From Yoonia sp. (GTDB taxonomy: Bacteria; Pseudomonadota; Alphaproteobacteria; Rhodobacterales; Rhodobacteraceae), in contig NZ_JAFMHJ010000008.1 of assembly GCF_017854565.1 (NCBI RefSeq), positions 1 to 64,000 of the forward strand: a stretch of DNA of 64,000 nt, in the 5' to 3' direction. Below the pieces are notes generated by a model. That model was not told where the DNA came from and ran no database searches. It saw only the letters and a program-made list of their open reading frames with translations. Both the position numbers and the translations under genes were made by a program. This document shows, piece by piece, positions 22,433 to 52,119 of the stretch; within the stretch, counting starts at the first letter, position 1; each line of letters begins with the position of its first letter.

Positions 22433-23860
22433 CTAGCTATTGTCACCACCATCACGACTAAGCAGGTCAAACTTGCGCAATTTGACATAAAGCGACTGCC
22501 GCGAAAGGCCCAGCATCTCGGCTGCGGCGACACGGTTGTTCATCGTCAGCTTGACCGCCGTTTCGATACACATTTTTTCGACCACATCGGTCGTTTCGGC
22601 GACAATGTCCTTTAGCGTTGCACTGCCGACAAGTTCGACAACAGAACGCATGTTTTCGTCGCTTGTCGGGCTAACCGTCGTGCGGCTGGCATCGGCATGG
22701 CTGGCATCGCGCATCACAAAGGCAAAAACCGCGTGAAGACCCGCATGAAGCTTTGTCACCGATATTTCAACCGCACGTGGGCTGCCATATTCGCCAGCGA
22801 TCTTGGTGGCGTACATGCGCATCCGCCCGGCGCGGGTTGCGTTGTCGATCATCACCTTCAGGTCGATGCTACCGCGCTGCAGATAGTCCGCAAGATTACG
22901 CCCGCGCAGGTTAATGTCATGCGCAATATCAATCAATTCAAGGAACGAATCATTGGCCGACAAAAGATCGCCGGCGTCCGACGCAAAGACAATCGCATCA
23001 GGGCTGCTGAGGTAGAAATCATGCGTGGTGCGTGTGAGATCATCGGGTTTTGCATCACTGTCGCCCGTGCGCGCAAGCCGACACAGCAATATCCGTTCAC
23101 CCGCCGCCCGAAACAAGGTCGGCATGATATTCACAGCATGACCGCTGCCGCGGAGTTCACTTTTTGTAGCACTGTTTTTGGCGCAAATCGCCTGTGCCGC
23201 GAGGCCATCAACCAGATCACCACGCCTTCGCCCGTCAAAGCAGCTCGCAAATGGGTGGCCGACAAGGCTTTCGCGCGGCTGGTCAAGCAAGGATACCGCC
23301 GCTGGATTCGCTTCTGTTATTTCACCGGTTTGGACCGACACGAACATGACCGCCTCGGATGTGCTTTCCATCAGAACCCGAAACCGCGTGTCATATTCAC
23401 GCTGCATTTCATAGTCGCGTTCAAGCGCCAATTGCGCTTTGACCAATTGCTGCTGCATCTCAGCGATGGGGCGCAGGTCGCGCCCCAGCAACAGGATCGC
23501 GCCATCTGGCCCGATGCGGTGGAAGCTATAGCGCACAGGGAATTCCCAGCATCCGACTTCATCGGAATGGTTCAGCTCGACGGGGCGGACACTGGCTTGA
23601 CCGGACAAAAATGCGGCCAGCCTGCTTTCAAACTTTGGGACGCTTTCAATTGTCAGCGCGCTGCGGATATCCTTGTTTTCCCAATGCTCCAGCTTGCGAA
23701 ACGTCTCGTGGGCGGGGTTGGCAAGAACCGACAAAACGGTCCCGCTATCCGAAATGACGATGCTAAGGTCGGCCACCTCAGAAATGATATCGCCCAGAAT
23801 CTCGGGTGCGATAAGGGGAATAGCGCCGCTATTCCAATATTTCGTCCCGCGCGACGTCAT
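22433..23860 (-). CDS. ppsR: Photosynthesis gene repressor PpsR (CrtJ)
   Basis: 475 aa. Three PAS-like units (about 20-130, 155-265, 280-390) with a coiled Q-linker (EMQQQLVKAQLALERDYEMQ) precede a Fis-type helix-turn-helix at the C-terminus (NRVAAAEMLGLSRQSLYVKL). Known for the family: binds TGT-N12-ACA and represses bch, crt and puc genes in air. Cys431, just before the HTH, and Cys260 occupy places equivalent to the two redox cysteines described in Rhodobacter PpsR/CrtJ (positional estimate). It is 35 bp downstream of aerR. Four matching operator boxes occur in this window. Confidence 0.96.
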   Translation of the reverse strand: MTSRGTKYWNSGAIPLIAPEILGDIISEVADLSIVISDSGTVLSVLANPAHETFRKLEHWENKDIRSALTIESVPKFESRLAAFLSGQASVRPVELNHSDEVGCWEFPVRYSFHRIGPDGAILLLGRDLRPIAEMQQQLVKAQLALERDYEMQREYDTRFRVLMESTSEAVMFVSVQTGEITEANPAAVSLLDQPRESLVGHPFASCFDGRRRGDLVDGLAAQAICAKNSATKSELRGSGHAVNIMPTLFRAAGERILLCRLARTGDSDAKPDDLTRTTHDFYLSSPDAIVFASDAGDLLSANDSFLELIDIAHDINLRGRNLADYLQRGSIDLKVMIDNATRAGRMRMYATKIAGEYGSPRAVEISVTKLHAGLHAVFAFVMRDASHADASRTTVSPTSDENMRSVVELVGSATLKDIVAETTDVVEKMCIETAVKLTMNNRVAAAEMLGLSRQSLYVKLRKFDLLSRDGGDNS

Positions 23861-23895
23861 CGCAAGGGTGCCCCAGATGGTCCCGTTCCCACTAT

Positions 23896-24693
23896 TTAAG
23901 CCCTGCGCATCATAGTCGCGTCATCACGCGAATGTGTTCCCAGACCACAAAGTCGTATGGCCTCGGCTGATTGTGTAGTCGCATAGTCGGCGCCCGTAAA
24001 CGCGATAATGCTCTGGTCAGTTTCGACGGCGAGCAGCGACCCGCCAATAACGACCGGAGGTGATTGATCTGTTGCCGTCTTCACAACACCAACCAGCCGC
24101 CGCAGTGCTTCCCACGTTTCGCAAGGCGCGGCGGATATGAATACCGCATGAAATTTGGTCCGCTGCATCCGGCAGGTCACATCTTCGGGGTTGGCTCCCA
24201 ACACGACCCGCACCGAAAATCCTTTGCGGCGCAATTGCCCCGCAAGAACCATTGCGCCCAGCGTGTGATGCACATCGTGCGGCACGACCAACATGATCGA
24301 CGGTGCGCCTGCGTCAGCAGAGCTGTCACCAGCCCAGCTTGGGCCGAGATCACGCAGCATGGCCTGAAGGCGCGATACGCCGATGGTGACGCTGGCAAAT
24401 CCCAGCGCGTCCCGGGACCATGCGTCGCCCATGCGCCGCGCAAGTTCCGGAATATAGAAATCGGCAATATCCTCGGGGCAGGTTCCGGCCGACACCGCCT
24501 CGCGAATGGCAACCGCGCATGCCGCGGATTGCGCGCTGAGCGCTGCGTCGTGCAGCTTTTTCATGATGTCAGGGTCAAGACGACACCGGGCACCGTCCGC
24601 CAATGCGACGGCAACTGGCGCTGCTGATCTGACGATCTGGCACATAGGCGCATCCAATTGCGCCCAGACCTCTATGCTCCGGCGGTCGGCCAT
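23896..24693 (-). CDS. ppaA: B12-binding antirepressor PpaA/AerR
   Basis: 265 aa from ATG 24693 (MADRRSIEVW), preferred because of an AAAGGG site; the ORF-track start at 24804 would reach into the promoter. The C-terminal half is a cobalamin-binding-like domain with the motif VPHDVHHTLGAMVLAGQL. A His here (H142/H143) sits where AerR of Rhodobacter capsulatus ligates cobalt. The family senses light through adenosyl-B12 and modulates PpsR/CrtJ. It is divergent from bchF, with two PpsR boxes in between, and upstream of ppsR in the same unit. Confidence 0.92.
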   Translation of the reverse strand: MADRRSIEVWAQLDAPMCQIVRSAAPVAVALADGARCRLDPDIMKKLHDAALSAQSAACAVAIREAVSAGTCPEDIADFYIPELARRMGDAWSRDALGFASVTIGVSRLQAMLRDLGPSWAGDSSADAGAPSIMLVVPHDVHHTLGAMVLAGQLRRKGFSVRVVLGANPEDVTCRMQRTKFHAVFISAAPCETWEALRRLVGVVKTATDQSPPVVIGGSLLAVETDQSIIAFTGADYATTQSAEAIRLCGLGTHSRDDATMMRRA

Positions 24694-24773
24694 CCACGCA
24701 CCCTTTGGCTGAATCTGCGTATTTGGGCTGCAATTGCAGCAATATCTCACATTGTCCTTTGCGACAGAATAAA

Positions 24774-24791
24774 TGTCAAAGAAAATTGACA
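24774..24791. promoter_or_regulatory. PpsR/CrtJ box, aerR-proximal
   Basis: TGTCAAAGAAAATTGACA, an exact TGT-N12-ACA palindrome with extended TGTCA/TGACA arms. It lies 81 bp upstream of the aerR start. Consensus is from Rhodobacter work; the match is direct. Confidence 0.75.
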
Positions 24792-24814
24792 CATTGATCG
24801 CCATAGGCCTCCAG

Positions 24815-24837
24815 TTTTACATTAGTACACTGTAAAA
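24815..24837. promoter_or_regulatory. TTTTACA/TGTAAAA dyad in the aerR-bchF promoter region
   Basis: TTTTAC and GTAAAA arms flank an ACATTAGTACACT-like centre between the two PpsR boxes. It does not fit TGT-N12-ACA or the FNR consensus. It may be another operator or part of the divergent promoters; no assignment is made. Confidence 0.35.
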
Positions 24838-24897
24838 TAAGCATAATTTTGCGTATTTGGACCTGTTGGCCGCTGGCAGATTTAGCGCACACCAATG

Positions 24898-24915
24898 TGT
24901 AAGTTAAAGTTGACA
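24898..24915. promoter_or_regulatory. PpsR/CrtJ box, bchF-proximal
   Basis: TGTAAGTTAAAGTTGACA, TGT-N12-ACA, 54 bp upstream of the bchF ATG. Its centre is 124 bp from the aerR-proximal box, which would allow cooperative or looped repressor binding across the divergent region. Confidence 0.75.
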
Positions 24916-24969
24916 CATGCCTATATTGCCCCCTAGTCTTAACCCACACGACTGTCAGAGGGCGTTTTC

Positions 24970-32778
<7,809 letters not shown>

Positions 32779-36909: not shown

Positions 36910-36960
36910 AACCGCATTGGGTCAGCCACCCGTATGCCAGAGATGTGAAAGGGAACTCAC

Positions 36961-37257
36961 ATGGGACTATTTTTAAGAACGCAGGAAACCGCACCTTGCA
37001 CGGTGACGATTTCCCATCGGTTTGAGGAACTGTCGGCACATGTCCGGTTGGACAACGGCGCAGTGATCTATCCCGGCGATACGGTGCAGGTGCAGGGCCC
37101 CGAAATTATGGCCGCCTTTGGTGAATTGATCGAAGAAAAGCGCATGGCGACGATCACGCGCGCATCAAAGCTGGAACAGCTATGGACCCGCGCGACGGGC
37201 GATTTCGAATTCATGGAACTGTGCGAATTTTCATTCAGCGAAGAGGTGATGTCATGA
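36961..37257 (+). CDS. Conserved hypothetical protein of the puh-acsF region
   Basis: 98 aa, begins MGLFLRTQETAPCTVTISHR after a GAAAGGGAAC site. No signal peptide or membrane helix; predicted small and soluble, with a beta-rich first half (RLDNGAVIYPGDTVQV) and an acidic helical end (FEFMELCEFSF). A small gene occurs at this place in many Rhodobacterales clusters, but I know of no assigned function. It overlaps acsF in ATGA, so it is translationally coupled to the cyclase and could be an accessory subunit or chaperone for AcsF (inference). Confidence 0.82.
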   Translation: MGLFLRTQETAPCTVTISHRFEELSAHVRLDNGAVIYPGDTVQVQGPEIMAAFGELIEEKRMATITRASKLEQLWTRATGDFEFMELCEFSFSEEVMS

Positions 37258-45192: not shown

Positions 45193-45210
45193 TGTCAACT
45201 TAGTCTGACA
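45193..45210. promoter_or_regulatory. PpsR/CrtJ box, crtA side
   Basis: TGTCAACTTAGTCTGACA, TGT-N12-ACA with TGTCA/TGACA arms, 19 bp upstream of the proposed crtA start. Confidence 0.82.
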
Positions 45211-45269: not shown

Positions 45270-45287
45270 TGTCAACTTAGACTTACA
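45270..45287. promoter_or_regulatory. PpsR/CrtJ box, crtI side
   Basis: TGTCAACTTAGACTTACA, TGT-N12-ACA, 16 bp upstream of the crtI ATG. It shares TGTCAACTTAG with the crtA-side box, 77 bp away centre to centre. Confidence 0.8.
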
Positions 45288-51828: not shown

Positions 51829-52119
51829 ATGGCGACAAAACCAATGACGAAAGCGCAGCTTGTTGCTGCACTTGCCGAAGAAACAGGCATGGACAAAAAA
51901 GCAGCAGGGTCTGCTCTTGATGCCGTGACCGGTATCATCACCAAAGAAGTTGCAGGCGGCGGTGCCGTGACCCTTCCCGGTGTTGGCAAAATTTATTGCC
52001 GCGAGCGCCCAGAGCGCATGGTCCGCAACCCTGCAACGGGTGAGCAGATCAAGAAAGACGCCGACAAGGTTGTCAAAATGACAATCGCCAAGGCACTGAA
52101 AGACAGCGTCAACGGCTAA
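51829..52119 (+). CDS. HU/IHF-family histone-like DNA-binding protein
   Basis: 96 aa. Bacterial histone-like fold; KAQLVAALAEETGMDKKAAGSALD at the N-terminus and the DNA-binding arm containing RPERMVRNPATGEQI with the Pro intercalation site. GGGAGA ribosome site. Monocistronic, with a clear terminator. HU versus a divergent paralogue cannot be separated here. Confidence 0.93.
   Translation: MATKPMTKAQLVAALAEETGMDKKAAGSALDAVTGIITKEVAGGGAVTLPGVGKIYCRERPERMVRNPATGEQIKKDADKVVKMTIAKALKDSVNG

Follow-up and report, generated by a model that had tools for sequence, protein, structure and literature searches.

The gap between the divergent genes aerR and bchF very probably acts as a bidirectional control region repressed by PpsR. 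The aerR-bchF pair of PpsR operators is an already known and characterised control region in related bacteria, and here the operators, their overlap with predicted promoters, their conservation and the identities of the flanking genes are established in this genome. All coordinates refer to the window, the whole 64,000-nucleotide stretch of DNA that was analysed (Table 1).

Table 1. Features of the aerR-bchF control region and flanking genes
Feature	Coordinates	Strand	Remarks
ppsR (crtJ)	22433..23860	minus	TIGR02040, 421.8 bits vs cut-off of 275.4
aerR (ppaA), B12-binding antirepressor	23896..24693	minus	PF02310 above cut-off; ATG 24693 start conserved in the genus
aerR -10 element GACAAT	24751..24756	minus	17 bp from box 1 -35; conserved; from promoter scan
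PpsR operator box 1, TGTCAAAGAAAATTGACA	24774..24791	.	exact palindrome; conserved; 18/18 match to R. sphaeroides ppaA ChIP-seq site
Third dyad of the earlier note, TTTTACA-N9-TGTAAAA	24815..24837	.	probably chance
Degenerate counterpart TAGTACACTGTAA of the genus-conserved AT-rich IHF-like element	24823..24835	plus	6/9; element weak in held-out genera
PpsR operator box 2, TGTAAGTTAAAGTTGACA	24898..24915	.	exact palindrome; conserved
bchF -10 element TAGTCT	24934..24939	plus	N18 from box 2 -35; conserved TA..CT block
Degenerate PpsR-like box TGTCAGAGGGCGTTTTCA	24953..24970	.	5/6; covers bchF start codon
bchF, first gene of the bchFNB... superoperon	24970..25482	plus	TIGR02020 and PF07284

Genes flanking the control region

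An AerR/PpaA antirepressor is recognised by a B12-binding domain and by a gene adjoining ppsR; the aerR product carries the domain (PF02310), and ppsR follows aerR after a gap of 35 bp. On the other side, bchN lies on the plus strand with bchF, and more bch and puh genes are found downstream. With ATG 24804 as the aerR start, the choice of the ORF caller, box 1 would fall within the coding sequence. In relatives, the frame upstream of ATG 24693 is variable and often closed, and the conserved start is the counterpart of 24693; box 1 is therefore intergenic. A start at ATG 24804, comparable to that of the long isoform of Rhodobacter capsulatus, was ruled out because the extension is not conserved: a search of the relatives for an in-frame N-terminal extension of the R. 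capsulatus type yielded no conserved one. We also observed that the bchF of one genus relative (genome G288, contig C16, 708898-709406) is split by an in-frame stop and was matched in two pieces, possibly because this photosynthesis gene is decaying or because of an error in sequencing.

Two PpsR boxes overlap the predicted promoters

An earlier note on this DNA had described two exact TGT-N12-ACA palindromes 124 bp apart. Both were found, 124 bp from start to start within the 276-bp intergenic gap between the divergent aerR and bchF start codons, and both are genuine, exceeding chance expectation. By itself, the TGT-N12-ACA pattern carries little information, with 17 occurrences in the window vs 9 expected. 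The extended form TGTNA-N8-TNACA occurs six times in the window vs 0.33 expected, boxes 1 and 2 being among the six, and 30 times genome-wide vs 9 for a reversed control pattern. When the 276-bp region was shuffled, 1.1% of shuffles produced at least two exact boxes, and none of 5000 produced two extended ones. Further extended boxes lie elsewhere in the window. Two of them (45193-45210 and 45270-45287, 77 bp apart) lie near the divergent start of crtA and crtI, which, judging from the boxes, is likely a second PpsR-controlled divergent promoter. Another, TGTGAAAGGGAACTCACA, is a single PpsR-like box at 36944-36961, between puhC and acsF.

Each operator covers the predicted -35 element of its outward promoter. 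In minus-strand orientation, the left half of box 1 supplies the predicted aerR -35, TTGACA (24779-24774); the right half of box 2 supplies that of bchF, TTGACA (24910-24915). The corresponding transcription starts are predicted at ~24744 (minus strand) for aerR and ~24946 (plus strand) for bchF. The aerR promoter was the sole match in a promoter scan of positions 23700-25000, yet 0.9 matches were expected by chance; the bchF -10 element is a weak match, and the scan did not pick up the predicted bchF promoter. Conservation of both -10 elements is described below. A PpsR/CrtJ operator is expected to be a TGT-N12-ACA palindrome, to overlap photosynthesis promoter elements, to have a cognate PpsR in the genome and to recur at the same place in relatives. 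Here, the palindrome is present in two exact copies, a predicted -35 element lies inside each box, the genome encodes a PpsR that scores well above the TIGR02040 cut-off, and the boxes recur in relatives as follows.

Conservation and spacing in relatives

Among 110 fetched bchF loci, 109 had a divergent aerR, and 104 of these 109 contained at least two exact boxes. In a second set of 100 genomes, one per genus and partly overlapping the first set, at least two exact boxes were present in 97; the box 1/box 2 pair pattern was found in 94 second-set loci, 14 of which were already in the first set. Alignment of the window's genus with close relatives showed that the best-conserved blocks are the two boxes and the two -10 elements, that of aerR appearing as a conserved CATTGTC on the plus strand. 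Positions A2 and T6 of the aerR -10 element were retained in 86 of 97 relatives; among the 29 with a box spacing of 122-124 bp, 23 had the complete GACAAT. The TTGACA of box 2 was present in 97/97 relatives, which had been selected with this box pattern.

As a separate observation, 28 of the 110 fetched loci (L038, L040, L043 and others) have an exact TGT-N12-ACA box over the Shine-Dalgarno sequence and start codon of bchF; in the window, the box at this place has one degenerate arm.

Known counterparts in related bacteria

In Rhodobacter sphaeroides, where PpsR is a repressor and the gene order is the same as here, PpsR ChIP-seq located one site at ppaA (TGTCAAAGAAAATTGACACC) and one at bchF (TGTAAGTCAGAATTGACACT) (PMC4344238, its Table 2). 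The first 18 bp of the ppaA site are identical to box 1 (18/18), and the bchF site has the same form as box 2, with three differences inside 18 bp. Comparison with a ppsR mutant revealed expression changes of 7.5-fold for ppaA and 36-fold for bchF (PMC4344238).

The ppaA-bchF region of Dinoroseobacter shibae likewise combines divergent genes with PpsR motifs. Of the four motifs predicted in this region, two span the bchF -35 and the -10/start, and mutation of two motifs raised bchF-lacZ expression to the level of a ppsR mutant (PMC10890935). In the window, by contrast, each of the two promoters has one exact box, and a degenerate box covers the bchF start codon. A published D. shibae primer sequence, sought in order to locate the D. 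shibae locus, had no match in 258 genomes.

R. capsulatus also resembles the present arrangement in having a divergent aerR and a CrtJ ChIP peak upstream of bchF (PMC5362033). It produces long and short forms of AerR from two start codons, with two promoters and FnrL sites (PMC5362033, PMC6199135, PMC4634722), and FnrL binds the aerR-bchF region (PMC4634722). The window differs: relatives do not conserve the in-frame extension upstream of ATG 24693, and there is no FnrL site at box 1, where the window matches TTGAYNNNNRTCAA at only 5 of 10 positions. A 10/10 match at box 1 was found only in L048, L050, L053 and L055. In these four loci, the right arm of the box shares sequence with a perfect FnrL-type site, TTGACATARATCAA, which suggests that FnrL and PpsR may compete at box 1 in some relatives.

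Taken together, conservation, -35 overlap and the ChIP-seq and reporter results published for the orthologous sites strongly support control of both divergent promoters by the PpsR boxes.

Repression, feedback and the relationship between the boxes

In the mechanism that we favor, PpsR would bind both TGT-N12-ACA operators. Since each operator's outward half doubles as the predicted -35 element (TTGACA) of the promoter on that side, bound PpsR would block RNA polymerase both at bchF, and hence at the bacteriochlorophyll superoperon, and at aerR(-ppsR). The repression would in turn be modified by AerR, which binds B12 and is a partner of PpsR, so that PpsR would restrain production of its own antirepressor. 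PpsR binding and repression have been demonstrated by others in relatives, and by analogy the same presumably holds in this strain.

The earlier note had further proposed that PpsR controls production of both AerR and PpsR in a feedback loop. For aerR, this proposal is supported by analogy with R. sphaeroides ppaA, which is bound by PpsR and changes in expression in the ppsR mutant. For ppsR itself, we can only infer feedback: the 35-bp gap and the description of ppaA-ppsR as an operon in D. shibae (PMC10890935) would favor it, whereas in R. sphaeroides ppsR is reported to be expressed at a nearly constant level (PMC4344238). Our search of the window for TGT-N12-ACA found no further exact box in the aerR-ppsR gap. 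We infer that in this strain the two boxes cooperate and that transcription reads through from aerR into ppsR.

The most serious competing explanation is that the boxes are independent: box 1 would serve aerR only and box 2 bchF only, the two would make no contact, and ppsR would be unaffected. That each box overlaps a different -35 element would fit this explanation, as would the near-invariant ppsR expression of R. sphaeroides. The spacing of the boxes can be read in either direction: it forms clusters at 122-125 and 142-148 bp and varies widely between genera, and we detected no significant helical phase in the relatives, but within the window's genus it is tightly clustered. Against independence, CrtJ of R. 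capsulatus binds cooperatively to distant sites 45-500 bp apart (PMC6199135), and in D. shibae ppaA and ppsR are described as an operon. On balance, we consider independent boxes a genuine possibility, although one we lean slightly against.

Elements in the spacer between the boxes

In the genus, the spacer contains a conserved AT-rich element that lies 30-33 bp from box 1 and matches the IHF consensus, YAANNNNYTGATW. Matches of at least 8/9 at this distance occurred in 17 of 94 discovery loci; no other offset gave more than 3, and none of 400 column-permuted patterns performed equally well. These discovery statistics are optimistic because the motif was recognised after the alignment had been viewed. 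In held-out genera, the motif was at the predicted place in only 2 of 80, and 12 of 400 permuted patterns were equally good. The window's own spacer matches YAANNNNYTGATW at 6 of 9 positions at the conserved place, below what an IHF site calls for. The genome does have IHF alpha and beta genes, and the papers searched offered nothing useful on IHF at photosynthesis promoters. The element, strong in the discovery set and weak in the held-out set, is thus a weak lead. Given also the lack of helical phasing, we regard it as unlikely that PpsR at the two boxes makes contact by looping with the help of an IHF-like site that bends the spacer, and it is similarly improbable that in the window's genus an IHF-type bender at a fixed place causes aerR and bchF to be repressed through one shared looped complex. 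Separately, the window encodes a third, divergent HU/IHF-like gene (51844-52116), whose matches to the himA and hip models are below the cut-offs.

The earlier note had also pointed to a third dyad between the boxes. The dyad is literally present, but its proposed role as a regulatory element did not hold up, and we rejected it as an operator: inverted repeats with arms of at least 7 bp, that is, as long or longer, arose in 66 of 200 shuffles of the 276-bp region, and the dyad is not conserved in relatives (score of 8.5/14 vs 8.2 in shuffles). A functional operator for a further regulator is very unlikely, even though the dyad is a perfect 7+7 inverted repeat and the corresponding intergenic region is bound by PrrA and MppG in R. 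sphaeroides, where both give peaks (PMC4263372), and by FnrL in R. capsulatus (PMC4634722), since its arm order is opposite to that of a PpsR box and the relatives do without it; the dyad most likely arose by chance.

Implications

The PpsR-repressed region between aerR and bchF is a textbook control region of purple bacterial photosynthesis, and it proved near-universal among the phototrophs sampled in the family, with each PpsR operator now mapped onto the predicted -35 of the corresponding promoter. Because the conserved pair is so widespread, the loop by which PpsR acts on the gene of its antirepressor is probably ancient and conserved, and not a trait of a single species.
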